A stretch of DNA of 64,000 bases from Methanofollis formosanus (GTDB taxonomy: Archaea > Halobacteriota > Methanomicrobia > Methanomicrobiales > Methanofollaceae). Positions 4,517-39,442 of the stretch are shown piece after piece; position 1 is the stretch's first letter, and the number at the start of each line of letters is the position of its first letter. Both the position numbers and the translations under genes were made by a program. The stretch is from contig NZ_CP037968.1 of assembly GCF_019633745.1 (NCBI RefSeq), forward strand, positions 1,494,789 to 1,558,788, read 5' to 3'. Under the pieces are notes generated by a model. The model ran no database searches. It was not told the DNA's origin and was given only the letters and a program-made list of their open reading frames with translations.

Positions 4517-4987
4517 TTAGGGCTCCTCAGCTTCGATCAATTCCTTCAGTTTCTTCAGGTCGAGCGGATGCGCCCGCTCTTCATCCGGCCGTCTGGCAGC
4601 GGCCTCCTCAATCTCCCCGGTGTCCATCCCGGCCACGCGCGCAAGCCCGTGCGAGATGTACCTCACCCGCTGCATCTCGAACTCGTGCCCGAGATACCCG
4701 GGCCGCGCTCCGCCCAGGTTGGCCCGACACCGGCGCTCGTCGCCGGGCGGAAATCCCCGGTCTTTGATGAAAATATGCGTCGGGTCGAACGCCCGGATCG
4801 CCTCGACAAGGGACTCGACCTCTTCGGGTTTCCCGGTCACCTGGAGACCGAAACAGGTCTCCTTGATCATGACACCGGCAGAGATCTCGTAGGCTTTCAC
4901 CGCGAGATCCTTCGCGGTGAGGAGCGGCGACTCAACGAAGACGTACTTCGTGACCGTCCCCTGATATTTCGGGACGTACTCAGCCAT
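4517..4987 (-). CDS. mmp6: Methanogenesis marker protein 6
   Basis: A 156-residue protein starting MAEYVPKYQGTVTKY, assigned to methanogenesis marker 6 (TIGR03272). I use the ATG at 4987; the frame stays open upstream, but that part only antisense-overlaps or out-of-frame-overlaps marker 3 and is not family-like. The start overlaps the marker-3 stop by 8 bp. The C-terminal third is charged. Function is unknown. Confidence 0.85.
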   Translation of the reverse strand: MAEYVPKYQGTVTKYVFVESPLLTAKDLAVKAYEISAGVMIKETCFGLQVTGKPEEVESLVEAIRAFDPTHIFIKDRGFPPGDERRCRANLGGARPGYLGHEFEMQRVRYISHGLARVAGMDTGEIEEAAARRPDEERAHPLDLKKLKELIEAEEP

Positions 4988-33053: not shown

Positions 33054-33536
33054 ATGGCAAAGACCCCGGTCTCGACACGCGCCCTTCTTCTCCCCCTTGC
33101 TCTTCTGGTCCTTGCACCTTTCATCGCCATCGCGGCCTCCCGCACTCCCCAGGAGCAGACCCTGCTCTGGACTGCCGCCGGGATCCTTGCCCTCCTGATC
33201 GTCCCGGCCGTCGGCACGCGCCTGATTGCCGGAGAAGAAGAGTTGAATCCGTTCGTCGCCGCTCTCTGTTCGGCGGGACTCCCGGGATTCGGTCAGGTCA
33301 CAAACGGTCAGCTGGGAAAAGGGTTTCTCGTCTGTGTCCTCTGTGCCTTCGGGCTGAAGGAAGCAACGGTTATCGGTGGCCTCATCGCCGGCGGGGCCTG
33401 GCTCTGCAGCGCCGCTGATGCCTTCGTCACCGCGCGCCGCATGCATACCGGCAGTGTCCCCCTGCTCCCGGTATCACGAGCGATCTTTATCGAGTACGTC
33501 GTTCTCGGGTTTGCGGCGGCCTATGCCCTGCCATGA
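33054..33536 (+). CDS. Small multi-pass membrane protein (TM2-like)
   Basis: A 160-residue protein with four to five hydrophobic segments. The motif PGFGQVTNGQLGKG resembles the turn of TM2-type proteins. The 3' end overlaps the convergent arsR gene by 16 bp. Upstream is an AT-rich divergent region with GATATAATAAG about 10-20 bp before the ATG, which suggests a short or absent leader. Function is unknown. Confidence 0.6.
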   Translation: MAKTPVSTRALLLPLALLVLAPFIAIAASRTPQEQTLLWTAAGILALLIVPAVGTRLIAGEEELNPFVAALCSAGLPGFGQVTNGQLGKGFLVCVLCAFGLKEATVIGGLIAGGAWLCSAADAFVTARRMHTGSVPLLPVSRAIFIEYVVLGFAAAYALP

Positions 33537-33877
33537 CCGGCACCGGCGAGGCGGGCGGCGAACTCCTCCCCCTCATCGGTGAGCGAGTAGATGATCCAGG
33601 TGCCCTGCTGTTCGCCGGCGATCAGGCCGGCTTTTTTGAGGACGTTGAGGTGATAGGAGAGGCGCGAGTCGGCGATCCCGAGCACTTCCCTGATCACGCA
33701 GACACAGAACGGTCCGGGAGCGAGGAGGAGGAGGATCTTCAGGCGCATCGGATCTGCAAGGGCCTTGAACCGAGCGGAGAGTGTTTCGAGCGCGCCATCG
33801 TCCGGGATCAGATCTTTGAGTCCCTCGATACCACCGATCTTTGCAAGGTCATCTTCAAGAGGTCCGGGAATTGCCAT
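33521..33877 (-). CDS. arsR: ArsR/SmtB-family metal(loid) repressor
   Basis: A 118-residue winged-helix regulator. FKALADPMRLKILLLL opens the DNA-binding domain. PFCVCVIREVLGI carries the Cys-Val-Cys pair of the classical ArsR alpha-3 sensor site, and SRLSYHLNVLKKAGLI is the recognition helix. It should bind As(III), Sb(III) or another soft metal and let go of DNA. An operator-like palindrome starts 6 bp upstream of its ATG, so it probably represses itself and the divergent permease operon. Confidence 0.88.
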   Translation of the reverse strand: MAIPGPLEDDLAKIGGIEGLKDLIPDDGALETLSARFKALADPMRLKILLLLAPGPFCVCVIREVLGIADSRLSYHLNVLKKAGLIAGEQQGTWIIYSLTDEGEEFAARLAGAGHGRA

Positions 33878-33882
33878 GATCT

Positions 33883-33902
33883 ATTTCAAAACGATATGAA
33901 AT
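33883..33902. promoter_or_regulatory. ArsR operator-like palindrome 1
   Basis: TTTCAA-N6-ATGAAA inside a 20-bp near-palindrome, just upstream of the arsR ATG. The same TTTCAA-N6-TTGAAA layout recurs at 33937-33954. Confidence 0.6.
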
Positions 33903-33910
33903 GGGTAACT

Positions 33911-33918
33911 CTATATAG
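33911..33918. promoter_or_regulatory. Shared palindromic TATA box for arsR and the permease operon
   Basis: CTATATAG reads the same on both strands and lies between the two operators, suited to serve both divergent genes. Confidence 0.5.
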
Positions 33919-33936: not shown

Positions 33937-33954
33937 TTTCAACAAATCTTGAAA
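33937..33954. promoter_or_regulatory. ArsR operator-like palindrome 2
   Basis: TTTCAA-N6-TTGAAA with perfect arms, about 25 bp downstream of the TATA box and 16 bp before the permease ATG, where bound repressor would block transcription start. Confidence 0.6.
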
Positions 33955-33970
33955 CACTCGGTGAGCCATC

Positions 33971-35038
33971 ATGACAGATCCCATCACCGGCGCCCTCCTT
34001 GCCGGCGCCGACACACTCATCAGTTATCTTGCAGAGCACGTCCTCACCTGTCTGGTCCCGGCCTTCTTCATCGCGGGGGCGATCGCCGCCTTCGTCAAGA
34101 AGGACGCGATCCTGAAGTATTTCAGCCCTGACGCGAAGAAAAGCGTCAGTTACGGGATCGCATCCATCTCGGGGACGGTGCTCGCCGTCTGCTCGTGTAC
34201 GATCCTCCCGATGTTCGCCGGGATCTATAAGAAAGGGAGCGGCATCGGCCCGGCGGTCACCTTCCTGTACGCCGGCCCGGCGATCAACGTGCTGGCGATC
34301 ATCTACACCGCAAAAGTGCTCGGCTTCGATCTCGGCCTTGCCAGGGCCGTCTCGGCCGTGCTCCTTGCCATCGTCATCGGCCTCATCATGGCGGCGGTCT
34401 TCAGGAAGCACGACGAGGCTCTCCGGGCAACCGCACCGGCACGGACCTACGGGAACGGCGAGGACGAGCGGCCGCGCTGGGCGACCCTCGGGTTCTTCGC
34501 CGCACTCGTCGGCATCCTCATCGTCGGGGCCTCGCAACTCCCCTGGACGATCAAGTTCCCGGTCGTGTATATCCTCACCCTCGCCGTCGCCGTCCTGCTC
34601 ATCTACTTCTTCGAGCGGGATGAGGTGACCGACTGGGGCTACGAGACCTGGGACCTGGCAAAGAAGATCTTTCCCATCCTGCTGATCGGCACCTTTGCCC
34701 TGGGGATGCTCGCCTCCTTCCTCCCGCCCGAGACCTTTGCCCCGTACTTCGGGGAGACTTCGATCGAGTCGACCCTGCTGGCGGCAGTGGTCGGCGGGAT
34801 CCTGTACATGCCCACCCTCCTGGAGGTGCCGATCATCGGCACGACCTTCGGCTACACCTCGGGCGTGATGGCCGGCGGTCCCGCGCTCGCGCTCCTCCTT
34901 GCCGGCCCGAGCGTGAGCCTGCCCTCGCTGATGGTCATCTACCGGGTGATGGGAGCGAAGAAGACGGCGGTGTACGCCGTGCTCGTCATCCTCTTCTCGG
35001 CGCTGGCCGGGTTGGTGTACGGGACCATCATGGGGTGA
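33971..35038 (+). CDS. ArsP/UPF0718-type permease
   Basis: A 355-residue membrane protein with about eight to ten helices. The first half holds the CSC motif in AVCSCTILPMFAGIYKKGSG, followed by FLYAGPAINV, the signature of the ArsP/DUF318 permease family. Family members export trivalent organo-arsenicals. A second repeat half contains GILYMPTLLEVPII. With ArsR upstream and a thioredoxin and arsenate-reductase-like protein downstream, efflux of a thiol-reactive metal(loid) is the likely job. Confidence 0.85.
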   Translation: MTDPITGALLAGADTLISYLAEHVLTCLVPAFFIAGAIAAFVKKDAILKYFSPDAKKSVSYGIASISGTVLAVCSCTILPMFAGIYKKGSGIGPAVTFLYAGPAINVLAIIYTAKVLGFDLGLARAVSAVLLAIVIGLIMAAVFRKHDEALRATAPARTYGNGEDERPRWATLGFFAALVGILIVGASQLPWTIKFPVVYILTLAVAVLLIYFFERDEVTDWGYETWDLAKKIFPILLIGTFALGMLASFLPPETFAPYFGETSIESTLLAAVVGGILYMPTLLEVPIIGTTFGYTSGVMAGGPALALLLAGPSVSLPSLMVIYRVMGAKKTAVYAVLVILFSALAGLVYGTIMG

Positions 35039-35045
35039 ACAGACC

Positions 35046-35315
35046 ATGAAAGAAGACAAGCCATGCTGTGCAGCAGAGGCCCTCAGACGTATCAGACAGG
35101 TGGACGTCGGGGGCATCGTCGTCGGGCTTTCGATGCTCGATAAGGTGATCGCAGACGTCGAAGCGCTCGAGATCACCTCGGAGTCTGGACTGACCGAAGA
35201 ACTGGTGAAGCGAACAAAGATCTACAACTATATCCCGAAGAGCGCGGAGACGATATACGGCGAAGCGCTCCTCAAAATCTATCAAAAAGAGGTGAACAAC
35301 CATGGTCACAATTGA
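35046..35315 (+). CDS. Small Cys-Cys protein of the ars locus, unknown
   Basis: An 89-residue soluble protein with a Cys-Cys pair near the N-terminus (DKPCCAAEALRRIRQ), then mostly helical sequence. It starts 7 bp after the permease stop and overlaps the thioredoxin gene by 14 bp. The adjacent cysteines would suit metal binding. I do not recognise a family with a known function. Confidence 0.6.
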   Translation: MKEDKPCCAAEALRRIRQVDVGGIVVGLSMLDKVIADVEALEITSESGLTEELVKRTKIYNYIPKSAETIYGEALLKIYQKEVNNHGHN

Positions 35316-35544
35316 AGTGTTTGGCACAGGCTGTGCAAAGTGCAAGCGGACGGCAAAGAATGTTGAGAAAGCGGTGGCCGAGATGGGGATCGAGGCAGAG
35401 GTCGTCAAGGTCGAGGAGATCAATGCGATCACCGACCGCGGCGTCTTCCTCACCCCGGCCCTCGCGGTCGACGGCGAGATGAAGGTCGAGGGCCGCGTCC
35501 CGACCGTCGACGAGGTCAAGGAGATCCTCTCGGAGGTGGCCTGA
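35302..35544 (+). CDS. Small thioredoxin-like protein (CxxC)
   Basis: An 80-residue redox-active thioredoxin/glutaredoxin-like protein. The active site is GCAKCKRT near residue 10, and the cis-Pro lies in FLTPAL. Very short thioredoxins of this kind are typical of methanogens. Placed between the Cys-Cys protein and the DGC proteins, it may reduce one of them or the arsenate reductase. Confidence 0.85.
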   Translation: MVTIEVFGTGCAKCKRTAKNVEKAVAEMGIEAEVVKVEEINAITDRGVFLTPALAVDGEMKVEGRVPTVDEVKEILSEVA

Positions 35545-35996
35545 TGGCGGAGTGTGGCTGTGGGTGCGGCGGCGGCGAGGGCGAGGGGCCGAAGCGGATC
35601 ATCTTCCCCTGCGCCGGTGCCGCCAATGTCGGGCAGATCACCAACCTCGCCGCGATCCAGCTCAGGGTGGAGGGCTTCGGCAGTCCGGCCTGCACGGCGC
35701 AGCTCGCCACCGGCGTGGGGCCGGTGATGAAAAAGTGCGGCGAGGCCGACGAGGTCGTCGTCCTCGACGGGTGCCCGACCGCCTGTGCCTCGAAGATCGC
35801 GGCGGCCCAGGGGATCGCACCTGACCAAGTGATCGTCGTCACCGAACAGGGGGTCGCCAAGTCCTCTGACCTCACCATCTCGGACGAGGAGATCGAGTGC
35901 GTCGTCTCCGCGGCCTGGGAAGGGAAAGGAAAGCCAGGGCAGCAGGAAAACTGTGGCTGTGGCGGCGGATGCGGATGCGGCTGTAACGATGAGTGA
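35544..35996 (+). CDS. DGC-domain putative zinc-binding protein with Cys-rich ends
   Basis: A 150-residue protein. The core has VVVLDGCPTACASK, the Asp-Gly-Cys motif that names the DGC domain (PF08859). Both termini are extra Cys/Gly-rich: MAECGCGCGGG at the start and CGCGGGCGCGC at the end, about 11 cysteines beyond the core. These look like metal- or arsenite-chelating tails. The start overlaps the thioredoxin stop (TGATG). Function of the family is not established. Confidence 0.8.
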   Translation: MAECGCGCGGGEGEGPKRIIFPCAGAANVGQITNLAAIQLRVEGFGSPACTAQLATGVGPVMKKCGEADEVVVLDGCPTACASKIAAAQGIAPDQVIVVTEQGVAKSSDLTISDEEIECVVSAAWEGKGKPGQQENCGCGGGCGCGCNDE

Positions 35997-36002
35997 ACCT
36001 CC

Positions 36003-36338
36003 ATGGACGGCGTGGTGCTGGTGACCTGTTCGGGCGTCTCAAACACCGGGACGTTGACGACGCAGGCAGCGGCGACCTTCAGACAGCGCCACCCTTCGGC
36101 CCTCGACGATGTCGTCCAGGCCAGAGACCTGGCACCGGGTGCGGTCCCTGCGGGCGGTCAGGTGATCGTCCTCGACGGTTGCACCGACGCCTGCGGACGA
36201 AAGAAACTCGAAGGTCTCGGGACCGTGCCTGACGTCCATATCGTGGCGACCGATCTCGGGGTCGTCAAGAACAGCATGGCAGAGGTGCGGTACGACGAGA
36301 TCGCACGGGTCGTTGCAGCGCTGCGAGAGGCGGTCTGA
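36003..36338 (+). CDS. DGC-domain putative zinc-binding protein, short form
   Basis: A 111-residue paralogue of the preceding protein, beginning VLVTCSGVSNTGTL and with VIVLDGCTDACGRKK as its DGC motif. It lacks the Cys-rich tails. It starts 6 bp after the previous stop. The pair suggests two subunits or two steps acting on the same metal(loid) or thiol substrate. Confidence 0.78.
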   Translation: MDGVVLVTCSGVSNTGTLTTQAAATFRQRHPSALDDVVQARDLAPGAVPAGGQVIVLDGCTDACGRKKLEGLGTVPDVHIVATDLGVVKNSMAEVRYDEIARVVAALREAV

Positions 36339-36415
36339 GAAGGGCCGCAGCCGTTCATCTCTCTTTTCTCGCAGGAGAGCGCGACCATTATAACAGACCG
36401 CGACAAGGAGGGTGC

Positions 36416-36820
36416 ATGAAAGAGAAAGTGCTCTTCATCTGCACCCACAATGCCGCCCGTTCCCAGATGGCCGAGGGGTATATGAGGGCGCGCTACGGCG
36501 AGCGGTACGAGGTCTATTCTGCCGGCACCGCCCCCGCCGTCGAGATCGACCCGAGGGCAGTGGCGGTGATGGCCGAGATCGGGGTGGACCTCGCCGGTCA
36601 GGAGACGAAGGCCCTCTCGGTCTATTTTCAGCAGGAGATGGACACCGTCGTGACTGTCTGCGAGGGCGGGATCTGCCCGATGTTCCCCTGGGCAAAGACC
36701 GTCATCCACGAGGAGTTCCCCGACCCGCGGGCCATCTCCGGGAGCGAGGGGGAGGTGCTCCAGGGGTTCAGGCGGGTGAGAGACGACATCATCAAATGGA
36801 TCGACGGCCGGTTTGGGTGA
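36416..36820 (+). CDS. arsC: Arsenate reductase, LMW-phosphatase type
   Basis: A 134-residue protein of the thioredoxin-coupled ArsC/low-molecular-weight phosphatase family. The P-loop is CTHNAARSQ (Cys9). Further cysteines lie in VCEGGICPMF, where ArsC has its resolving pair. It reduces arsenate to arsenite for export. It is separated from the DGC genes by 77 bp with CATTATAACA, so it may have its own promoter. Confidence 0.85.
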   Translation: MKEKVLFICTHNAARSQMAEGYMRARYGERYEVYSAGTAPAVEIDPRAVAVMAEIGVDLAGQETKALSVYFQQEMDTVVTVCEGGICPMFPWAKTVIHEEFPDPRAISGSEGEVLQGFRRVRDDIIKWIDGRFG

Positions 36821-37010: not shown

Positions 37011-37904
37011 TCACTCCCCCTTCCCCTTCAACCTCCTGAGCAGCGCGGACTCGGGACAGGGCTCGGGTTCGAACTCGAGGATGCTGTACTGGACATCATA
37101 CCGCCTGAGTCTTCTTCTGATCTCCCTCTTTATCTCCTCGATTTTCACGATGTCATCGGTGCAGGCGACGACATGGGCGTCGAGGACGTTGATATGCGAG
37201 CAGAGGGCCCAGAGGTGGATGTTATGCACCTCCTCCACCCCTTCGACGGCCTCCATTGCGGTCACCACCTCGTCGAAATCAATCCCTGAGGGCACGAACT
37301 GGAGGAGGATCCCGACCGTCTCCCGGAGAAGCGAGACCGACCCGACGAGGATCAGGAGGGCGATCCCGATGCTGAGGAGAGGGTCGACGACGGTCTGGCC
37401 GGTGACGGCGATCCAGGCCGCGGCGACGACGACCGCCACCGAGGAGAGGGTGTCGCCGACGACGTGGAGATAGGCGCTACGGACATTGAGGTCTTCGCTC
37501 CCGTGCAGTCTCCAGGCGACATAGAGGTTCACGACAAGCCCGATCACCCCCACCGCGGCCATCAGGGGCCCGGCGACCGGCACCGGATCGGCGAGACGCC
37601 TGAACGCCTCCCAGACGACCGTGCCCGCAAGGACGATGAGGAGCAGTCCGTTGACGAAGGCGACGAAGACCTCCACCCGGTGATACCCCCAGGTCCGCGT
37701 CCTGGTGGGAAGGCGCTCGGCGATGACCACTGCACCCAGGGAGAGGAGGAGGGCGAGGACGTCCCTGAACATATGCCCCGCATCCCCGATGAGGGCAAGC
37801 GATCCCGAGAGCACCCCGGCCACCGCCTCGACCACCATATACACCAGGGTGAGGACGACGGCGACCTTCAGGGCCGCCCGCTCGCCGCCCTTCCTGAGTG
37901 GCAT
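37011..37904 (-). CDS. Cation diffusion facilitator (Zn/Cd/Co exporter)
   Basis: A 297-residue CDF transporter with six helices. HMFRD in helix 2 and HVVGD in helix 5 are the paired His/Asp Zn site, and the C-terminal cytoplasmic domain (from ~210) includes HNIHLWALCSH. It exports divalent metals in exchange for protons. I use the ATG at 37904 (MPLRKGGERAAL); the longer frame runs into repeat sequence. Its 5' region is a family B/A repeat block, so no classical promoter is evident. Confidence 0.9.
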   Translation of the reverse strand: MPLRKGGERAALKVAVVLTLVYMVVEAVAGVLSGSLALIGDAGHMFRDVLALLLSLGAVVIAERLPTRTRTWGYHRVEVFVAFVNGLLLIVLAGTVVWEAFRRLADPVPVAGPLMAAVGVIGLVVNLYVAWRLHGSEDLNVRSAYLHVVGDTLSSVAVVVAAAWIAVTGQTVVDPLLSIGIALLILVGSVSLLRETVGILLQFVPSGIDFDEVVTAMEAVEGVEEVHNIHLWALCSHINVLDAHVVACTDDIVKIEEIKREIRRRLRRYDVQYSILEFEPEPCPESALLRRLKGKGE

Positions 37905-38620
37905 GTGGGGTGTGTGGGCCGCCGGGGGTATGAACCTGTCCCCGGTGCGAGACGACGGTGAAGGTTCTGCGAAGAGGGGGGAGTTGATCATCACGCCTTC
38001 CCCCATGCTCTCAAGCCGGGGGCTCTGCCCCCGGACCCCCGGGATGGCGATAGGGCCGGGAAGGCAGAGCGATATTGATGAAGAGGTGAGTGCCGCCCCA
38101 CCCCTATCTTCATCCCGGGGGGTCCGGGTGGTCTCACACCGCCCCCCCTTCATGACCCCAGAGAGAGAATCCGGACGGGAAGAGGACGGCCATTATTCAG
38201 CAGGAGCACACCACCACGTGCCGTCCCCCGCACTATCTTCTCGCGAGACGGCGGAAAAGTCCTGCGATGAAGGGACGGCATGTTCTGCCCGCCACACCAG
38301 CCCCGTTGTCATGACCCCGAAGATAAAACCAGAACGGGGGAAGGGCACGCCTGCTCGCCGCCCCCGCCCTCATCTTCTCGCGAAATACCAGAACAAATTC
38401 AGTGATGAGGGGACGGCACGTTTGGATCATCACGCCATCCCACCGACATGACCCCAAAGATAGAACTCAGACGGGAGAGTGCTGATCAATTCTCAGTGGG
38501 ATCTCCGGTTCATGCCGTCCCACGTCCTATCCTCACGCGAGACGGCAGGAAAGACCTCGCTATGGGGGACGGCACCCCTGATCACCACACCTTTATCAAA
38601 CCGCCTTCCCCACCATCCCC
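37905..38620. other. 716-bp divergent gap filled with family B and A repeats
   Basis: One family B unit (~37920-38065, with CCGGGGGCTCTGCCCCCGG) is followed by a partial B (38095-38150) and then about three family A units to ~38600. No gene; open frames here are repeat translations. Confidence 0.65.
38150..38600 (+). repeat. Family A repeat units (about three)
   Basis: ATCTTCTCGCGAGACGG or close variants at ~38233, 38372 and 38530, each followed ~40 bp later by GGGACGGCA and preceded by CATGACCCC-AAGATA blocks. Same orientation as the 44.6-kb array. Confidence 0.7.
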
Positions 38621-39442
38621 ATGGACATCACCCCCCTCTGCGACAACACCGTCCTCACCGACCATTATTACCTCGGCGAGCCCGGCCTCTCCATCCACAT
38701 CAGGGACCGGGACACCGAGGTGCTCTTCGACCTCGGGTATTCCGACGTCTTCCTCAGGAACGCCCTGGCGATGGGGATCGCCCCCTGCGACGCCGACCAT
38801 GTCGTCTTCTCCCACTGCCACCTCGACCACACCTGGGGGCTTGGCCCCCTCCTCCGCCACCATGTCACCGGAGGGAACAAAAAGAGCCCTGAGTTCCTCG
38901 GCCACCCCGCACTCTTCAGGAGCGTGCGGTTCGACGGCGCCGAGATCGGGATGAACACCACCGCAGAGGGGCTTGCCCGGTACGGGGAGGTGCGCCTCTC
39001 GCAGGCACCCGTCGAGATCACCGAGGACATCATCTTCCTCGGCGAGATTCCGCGGTGCTTCGACTTCGAAGGGAAGACCGCCATCGGGACGTCGGAGGGC
39101 GCGCCCGACCTGGTTCCCGACGACACCGCCCTCGCCTGCCGGACCGATGAAGGACTGGTGATCGTTACGGGGTGCGCCCATGCCGGAATCTGCTCGACGG
39201 TCGAGTACGCAAAAGAGGTCTCAGGCGAAAAAAAGGTGGCGGACGTCATCGGGGGATTCCACCTCCTCGACGCACCGCCCGATCAGATCGAGGGAACCTG
39301 CCGGTTTTTCAAAAACCTCGGCGCCGACCGGATCCATCCCTGCCACTGCACCGGCCTCGCCGCGACCCTCGCCCTCGCCGGGGTGGCGAAGGTCCGCGAG
39401 ACCGGCGTCGGGCTCAGGCTCTCTTTTGAGCGGCGCTCCTGA
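38621..39442 (+). CDS. MBL-fold hydrolase, methanopterin-biosynthesis type
   Basis: A 273-residue metallo-beta-lactamase-fold protein. [10 protein letters not shown] is the HxHxDH metal site, and [19 protein letters not shown] and HPCHCTG supply the remaining ligands. The pattern matches archaeal proteins annotated as 7,8-dihydropterin-6-methyl-4-(ribofuranosyl)-aminobenzene-phosphate synthase, a methanopterin step; the assignment is by family. The 3' end overlaps the convergent cofD by 29 bp. Confidence 0.75.

Follow-up and report, generated by a model that had tools for sequence, protein, structure and literature searches.

What do two proteins of the DGC family (PF08859) and a small cysteine-pair protein do in an operon headed by an ArsP-type permease? 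The question is raised by a run of six genes on the forward strand of Methanofollis formosanus, at positions 33971–36820 of the window, by which we mean the 64,000-nucleotide stretch (1,494,789–1,558,788 of NZ_CP037968.1) taken from a 2.97-Mb single-contig genome. In order, the genes encode the permease ArsP, the small protein that we call CC, the thioredoxin-like Trx3, DGC1, DGC2 and an ArsC-like enzyme; sequence and profile matches confirm every member of this set as named in an original prediction made from the same DNA. That prediction read the genes as a metal(loid) module in which a thiol relay or chaperone route would pass a soft metal(loid), perhaps methylated arsenic, to the exporter. 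The present analysis supports a metal(loid) module and narrows it to arsenic, with the DGC genes conserved beside ArsP: judged from sequence, the six genes and a divergent arsR very probably constitute an ArsR-controlled arsenic-detoxification operon. A thiol relay, or a chaperone that serves the exporter, may operate here and is compatible with these data.

The spacings, in gene order, are +7, −14, −1, +6 and +77 bp, the last lying between DGC2 and arsC. The description of five genes with overlaps or gaps of at most 7 bp, followed by arsC, is correct except for the 14-bp overlap of CC and Trx3. The divergent arsR and two operator-like sites in the 93-bp gap that separates it from arsP belong to the same unit and were absent from the prediction.

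Conservation of DGC beside ArsP in other genomes, whose absence would have counted against the prediction, is borne out by a survey of every PF08859 gene in 295 genomes of the phylum, 112 of which possess DGC. In the order Methanomicrobiales, every one of the 46 genomes with DGC has such a gene no more than 5 kb from an ArsP_1 gene (chance expectation about 0.7% per locus); seen from the other side, 44 of 47 high-scoring ArsP genes have DGC at this distance or closer, with a median start-to-start distance of 1.6 kb. When the surroundings of DGC were read at 100 loci, Trx3 and ArsP shared a strand within 3 kb of DGC in 42/45 genomes of the order and in 23/43 others in the phylum, extending the module to further families. 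The surveyed genomes share ancestry, so these counts are not independent trials, and the 46 span many genera; the gene arrangement is far beyond chance. ArsP directly upstream and Trx3 directly downstream accompany 89 of 125 CC genes, many of the remainder sitting at contig ends or in reordered loci. Homologues of CC come almost exclusively from Methanomicrobiales; the identical order ArsP–CC–Trx3–DGC occurs outside the order in a Methanomassiliicoccales metagenome-assembled genome, for which mis-binning is possible. Viral carriage of DGC was not confirmed in IMG/VR.

The genes that travel with this module point to arsenic. Of the 30 order genomes possessing ACR3 (TIGR00832) as well as DGC, 28 place the two within 5 kb of each other, and the 143 loci with ArsP, Trx3 and DGC include ACR3 in 81, DUF2703 in 59 and arsC in 52. 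In 16 loci, mostly from Methanoculleus, DGC1 and DUF2703 are fused in a single open frame. DUF2703 proteins have a thioredoxin fold; their genes belong to ars clusters, and As(V) induces them in Rhodococcus aetherivorans BCP1 (PMC6514093); the window operon itself has no DUF2703. These companions bear on a reading in which the unit is not mainly concerned with arsenic, being a general soft-metal or an antimony, mercury or copper thiol-stress operon with an incidental arsC-like gene. Such a reading could appeal to the Cu/Zn transporter SO_0444 and SaoE among the NCBIfam relatives of the permease, to the sub-cut-off score of the ArsC-like protein, to a CDF exporter gene just downstream, and to the orphan DGC genes that adjoin CDF genes in two relatives. 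We consider it highly improbable: ACR3, arsC, DUF2703 and an ArsR with a CVC motif recur with the module, and the permease scores far under the equivalog cut-offs of both transporter families. It shares the superfamily PF03773 with them and is a member of neither, reaching 104.4 of 325 for SaoE, about one third, and 94.1 of 300 for the SO_0444 Cu/Zn efflux transporter.

Control of the unit can be read from the arsR–arsP gap. In 79 of 84 related cassettes the corresponding intergenic region holds palindromes resembling TTCA-N8-TGAA, with at least two copies in 54 (shuffled gaps gave a mean of 2.4 regions). Across all 2.97 Mb of the genome, the longer form TTTCA-N8-TGAAA occurs at only five sites; two are in the window's own arsR–arsP gap, where they flank a TATA-like stretch, CTATATAG, that is identical in a sister species (L103). 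Prediction of sigma-70 promoters is uninformative here, the host being an archaeon. The repressor matches the helix-turn-helix metalloregulator model NF033788, and its C58-V-C60 motif is kept in 83 of the 84 divergent ArsR proteins of related cassettes. The ArsR of plasmid R773 carries the cysteines CVCDLC, of the CVCxxC type, at the matching position in its α3 helix. C58 and C60 thus likely form an As(III)/Sb(III) sensor responsive to arsenite or antimonite.

Which arsenical would leave through the permease? The window ArsP carries LAVCSCT and HVLTCLVPAFFIAG, the motifs of cluster 1, whose definition comprises a universal C(S/T)C preceded by LAV and an N-terminal Hv(L/I)xClvPAfFIAG with an extra cysteine (PMC4435449, Yang et al. 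2015). It shares C(S/T)C and the cluster-1 motifs with the known ArsP permeases, represented by ArsP of Campylobacter jejuni and the cluster 1 of Yang et al., and is distinguished by its flanking CC, Trx3 and DGC genes. No credible relative in the PDB was detected by sequence, and no substrate data for cluster-1 ArsP as such were found in the literature searched. The genome has no match to ACR3 (TIGR00832), and none of its proteins reaches the equivalog cut-off for ArsB, the best scoring 100 of 415; PF02040 “ArsB” matches of 48–73 bits were set aside as probable ion-transporter relatives, since none attains that cut-off. With no other dedicated As(III) exporter found, the cluster-1 ArsP is the only dedicated candidate for exporting the product of ArsC, and may therefore export inorganic As(III). 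The competing possibility is that methylated or other organic trivalent arsenicals are the cargo, with DGC and CC delivering trivalent methylated arsenic, MAs(III), to ArsP. Both MAs(III) and trivalent roxarsone are indeed exported by the C. jejuni ArsP, and arsenic can become methylated in methanogens through a side reaction of methanogenesis (PMC6205960). Methylated arsenic, which the prediction had offered as cargo, is nonetheless not favoured, and we regard it as improbable, because the genome contains no ArsM above cut-off, the recurring companions ArsC and ACR3 deal with inorganic arsenic, and the genome has no other dedicated As(III) exporter. The cassettes of sister species, considered next, add that a separate cluster-2 permease may take a different share of the substrates.

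In two sister species, L102 and L103, a second, cluster-2 ArsP is encoded in the same operon as the cluster-1 permease, suggesting that substrates are split between the two; the window lacks this second permease. The L103 operon, 92% identical to that of the window, has the same two operators followed by a 48-residue open reading frame with GGCCCCGTKIMPK, the cluster-2 ArsP gene and then the cluster-1 ArsP. The window is without this block of about 1.1 kb, the alignable segments stopping at L103 position 3731 and restarting at 4876. The block was either lost from the window or gained in L103; loss is favoured because the block is present in several relatives (L101, L102, L075), and it would make the window operon a reduced form of a two-permease cassette. 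The short reading frame belongs to a microprotein family of about 36–60 residues, with a consensus of roughly C-x-CCCG-x-KIVPK-EKK. Searched for with a strict pattern, the family is encoded immediately 5′ of cluster-2 arsP in at least 14 of 56 cases, compared with 7 of 3000 random stretches, and on the downstream side in none. Its members (L103:3750–3900, L102, L101, L075, L073, L212, L037, L113, L177, L148, L125, L076 and L087) are probably too short for ordinary gene calling, and the family is absent from the window along with the second arsP.

The thiols that could hold As(III) are found in the DGC proteins. DGC1 has 14 cysteines, at positions 4, 6, 8, 23, 50, 65, 77, 81, 119, 137, 139, 143, 145 and 147; three lie in the N-terminal tail (CxCxC), five in the C-terminal tail (CGCGGGCGCGC) and six in the core. 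The prediction had counted about 11 extra cysteines on the two ends; the tails hold eight, and 11 is obtained only as the excess over the three cysteines of DGC2. An alignment of 48 relatives shows C23, C50, C77 and C81 to be invariant or nearly so. These are the four potential chelating cysteines of PF08859, of which DGC2 retains three, lacking the C50 equivalent. The tails are widespread, with at least two N-terminal cysteines (usually CxC) in 130 of 139 DGC1 proteins and a C-terminal tail bearing at least three in 72. An AlphaFold2 model of DGC1, with a predicted local distance difference test (pLDDT) score of 85, has a small α/β core and disordered tails, with C23 placed after the first strand and C77 and C81 after the second. 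A fold search with the DGC model returned weak Rossmann-like matches only (best E 0.012, TM ~0.35), and no credible PDB relative was found by sequence.

The two DGC types keep different company. By a motif rule, on which the labels in these counts rest, arsC, where the locus has it, is no more than 120 bp from DGC2 in 29 of 42 cases and from DGC1 in 15 of 66, and DGC1 is beside Trx3 in 136 of 177. The two types form strongly supported separate groups in a tree of 41 proteins, except that two Methanosarcina-type proteins labelled DGC1 group with DGC2, and on this phylogeny DGC2 appears as an old, separate lineage. The Pseudomonas aeruginosa protein AnvM (PA3880) falls on the DGC1 side. Its Cys44, reported to be more sensitive to oxidants than every other cysteine identified in the P. 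aeruginosa proteome (PMC6650552), aligns with DGC1 Cys50, indicating that this site is chemically reactive. AnvM also qualifies the statement that DGC proteins have no settled function, which holds largely: it has a published regulatory phenotype, acting through Anr and MvfR, with protein partners (PMC6650552), the one phenotype that our searches found for the family, along with no solved structure. By analogy, the DGC proteins of the window might be regulators that tune ArsR or other factors from outside the transport path, a reading to which the phenotype and partners of AnvM and its place in the tree lend something. It has only a slight probability, given that the unit already has its own ArsR as a controller, with conserved operators, and that DGC, besides its fusion to DUF2703, neighbours the genes for permease and thioredoxin. 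AnvM itself differs from DGC1 in that its gene lies beside narL, in its description as a regulator and in lacking the CxC and CGCGC tails.

The remaining genes frame a second question, whether the thiols carry arsenic or only electrons. Trx3 matches PDB 1ilo (E = 2e-20), and its family, under the name redox-active disulfide protein 2, was noted in 2010 alongside arsC and CcdA in ars operons, where it was suggested to reduce ArsC (PMC2963123). The last gene encodes the CX5R P-loop of the LMWP fold (CTHNAARS) and a further cysteine pair, C-EGGI-C, with four residues between and a putative catalytic role. Its score below the equivalog cut-off of its best NCBIfam model is the reason for the name ArsC-like. 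From these parts a redox relay can be assembled, and this is the main rival to our reading: Trx3 and DGC would be electron carriers that recycle ArsC, along with thiols associated with ArsP, forming disulfides and no As–S bonds, with no arsenic carried. The CxxC site of Trx3, the proximity of DGC2 to arsC, the fusion of DGC to thioredoxin-fold DUF2703 and the equivalence of Cys50 to the hyper-reactive AnvM Cys44 all speak for it. Two lines of evidence make it unlikely in our judgement: i) outside the order, ArsP, Trx3 and DGC occur mostly without arsC (arsC in 1 of 50 loci), and ii) four core cysteines and CGCGC tails exceed the needs of a redox pair.

The CC protein matches no entry in Pfam or NCBIfam, in keeping with its unassigned status in the prediction, and has no sequence relative in the PDB. 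Its family alignment has invariant residues at the adjacent C7 and C8 and at N61, Y62 and P64. The AlphaFold2 model (pLDDT 82) is a β hairpin plus helices and found no fold match in the PDB (best E 2.1). Outside the DGC cassette, the CC domain recurs directly beside cluster-2 ArsP in Methanosarcina- and Methanothrix-type genomes, where the CC-like proteins carry a CC to CCCC motif (L230:5409–6691, L233, L234). We propose that CC is a membrane-side partner of the ArsP permease. A CC-domain paralogue lies elsewhere in the source genome, at about 1,879.5 kb (L226:8898–9314); in it a zinc-ribbon-like start, YCTICGG, replaces PCC, and its gene adjoins that of a C_GCAxxG_C_C protein. The paralogue is found in most Methanomicrobiales searched and belongs to no Pfam or NCBIfam family.

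Taken together, a model for the operon emerges. The sequences establish the gene set and its conservation, a conserved operator, conserved cysteines in the sensor and other conserved thiols, and an association with ACR3, ArsC and DUF2703; from these we infer that arsenic is both inducer and cargo. The divergent ArsR would repress the operon at the two TTTCA-N8-TGAAA operators, and binding of As(III) at its CVC site would induce it. The ArsC-like enzyme would reduce As(V) to As(III), which would then be held by DGC thiols: the four-cysteine core and CxC and CGCGC tails of DGC1, and the three-cysteine core of DGC2, which travels with arsC. As(III) would exit through the cluster-1 ArsP, with its conserved N-terminal cysteine and CSC motif and with CC as its membrane-side partner during exit, while the MTH895-type thioredoxin would keep the thiols of DGC, CC and/or ArsC reduced. 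As a whole, this explanation is moderately probable. Within it, DGC1 most likely uses its many thiols to carry or buffer As(III), with thioredoxin keeping it reduced, and DGC2 would work with ArsC. For the separate parts, binding of As(III) by the DGC proteins appears evenly balanced, and its hand-off to ArsP with CC as partner is put forward tentatively.

Several observations weigh against this model. ACR3 is missing from 16 of the 46 DGC-bearing genomes of the order; ArsR has no counterpart of the third cysteine in the R773-type site; and the ArsC-like protein reaches 102.2 of the 174.3 cut-off of its best NCBIfam model, TIGR02691 (thioredoxin-type ArsC). The C. jejuni ArsP does not export arsenite (PMC6205960), and AnvM showed no significant metal binding in one reported attempt, made from inclusion bodies (PMC6650552). 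Bacterial DGC genes on plasmid records lie beside nitrate/NO or unrelated genes and not beside arsenic genes, indicating that the DGC fold itself is not arsenic-specific and serves other ends too. In the plasmid records L214 and L238, the neighbours of DGC are NnrS, hemerythrin, norR/ytfE or narL.

Table 1 Features of the arsR–arsP unit, in window coordinates.
Feature	Coordinates	Strand	Description	Profile match or basis
arsR	33521..33877	−	Divergent ArsR/SmtB repressor, 118 residues	NF033788, 85.8 bits (cut-off 55)
Operator-like palindrome	33884..33901		TTTCA-N8-TGAAA, upstream of arsR	Exact match
TATA-box-like stretch	33911..33918	+	Around CTATATAG, between both operator-like sites	Read from sequence
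Operator-like palindrome	33937..33954		TTTCA-N8-TGAAA (TTTCAACAAATCTTGAAA), upstream of arsP	Exact match
arsP	33971..35038	+	Cluster-1 ArsP-type permease, 355 residues	PF03773, 242.7 bits (gathering score 32.3)
CC protein	35046..35315	+	89 residues, N-terminal PCCAAEAL, C-terminal NYxP; proposed permease partner	
Trx3	35302..35544	+	MTH895/ArsE-family thioredoxin-like protein, 80 residues, CAKC redox site	PF13192; TIGR00412, 103 bits (cut-off 62)
DGC1	35544..35996	+	150 residues, 14 Cys	PF08859, 102 bits (gathering score 27)
DGC2	36003..36338	+	111 residues, 3 Cys (9, 60, 64)	PF08859, 71.1 bits (gathering score 27)
arsC-like	36416..36820	+	134 residues, LMWP fold, CTHNAARS and CEGGIC	PF01451, 66.9 bits

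Just downstream of the unit, the CDF cation exporter gene (37011–38153, minus strand) is convergent with arsC; of the two relatives in which an orphan DGC gene adjoins a CDF gene (L045 and L091), L045 encodes a DGC protein 57% identical to DGC1. The intergenic stretch at 38134–38557, between the CDF gene and a metallo-β-lactamase-fold gene at 38621, contains imperfect direct repeats of about 45–47 nt, in two to three copies each, that are 60–82% alike. Anti-phage defence families were not found.

Set beside canonical ars operons (arsR–acr3/arsB–arsC, with arsP, arsD/arsA or redox genes), the window operon shares a divergent ArsR, a permease, an arsenate-reductase-like enzyme and a thioredoxin-like protein. 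It differs in having no ArsA or ArsD gene, in a genome that lacks ACR3 as well as an ArsB above cut-off, and in containing DGC1, DGC2 and CC, no description of which in ars operons was found in the literature searched, although papers beyond its reach may exist. By analogy, DGC and CC would play the role of the metallochaperone ArsD in bringing As(III) to the exporter system; neither CC nor the two DGC proteins has a sequence match to ArsD in Pfam or NCBIfam. A broader scheme can be drawn, in which DGC would be a hitherto unrecognised kind of As(III) carrier with no relation to ArsD, small proteins with CC motifs would be dedicated adaptors of ArsP-type permeases, each permease type having its own (CC would serve cluster 1, and either CCCCG microproteins or proteins like CC would serve cluster 2), and cluster-1 ArsP would export inorganic arsenite; as a package we hold this to be doubtful.

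Methanogens of paddy soil and sediment meet arsenite directly, and in these organisms two unassigned families, DGC and CC, become testable parts of an arsenic operon. Throughout one methanogen order, DGC (PF08859) is now tied to ArsP, arsC, ACR3 and DUF2703. In a genome with an ArsC-like gene and with neither ACR3 nor ArsB found, the cluster-1 ArsP would be the first place to seek an unrecognised arsenite exporter.

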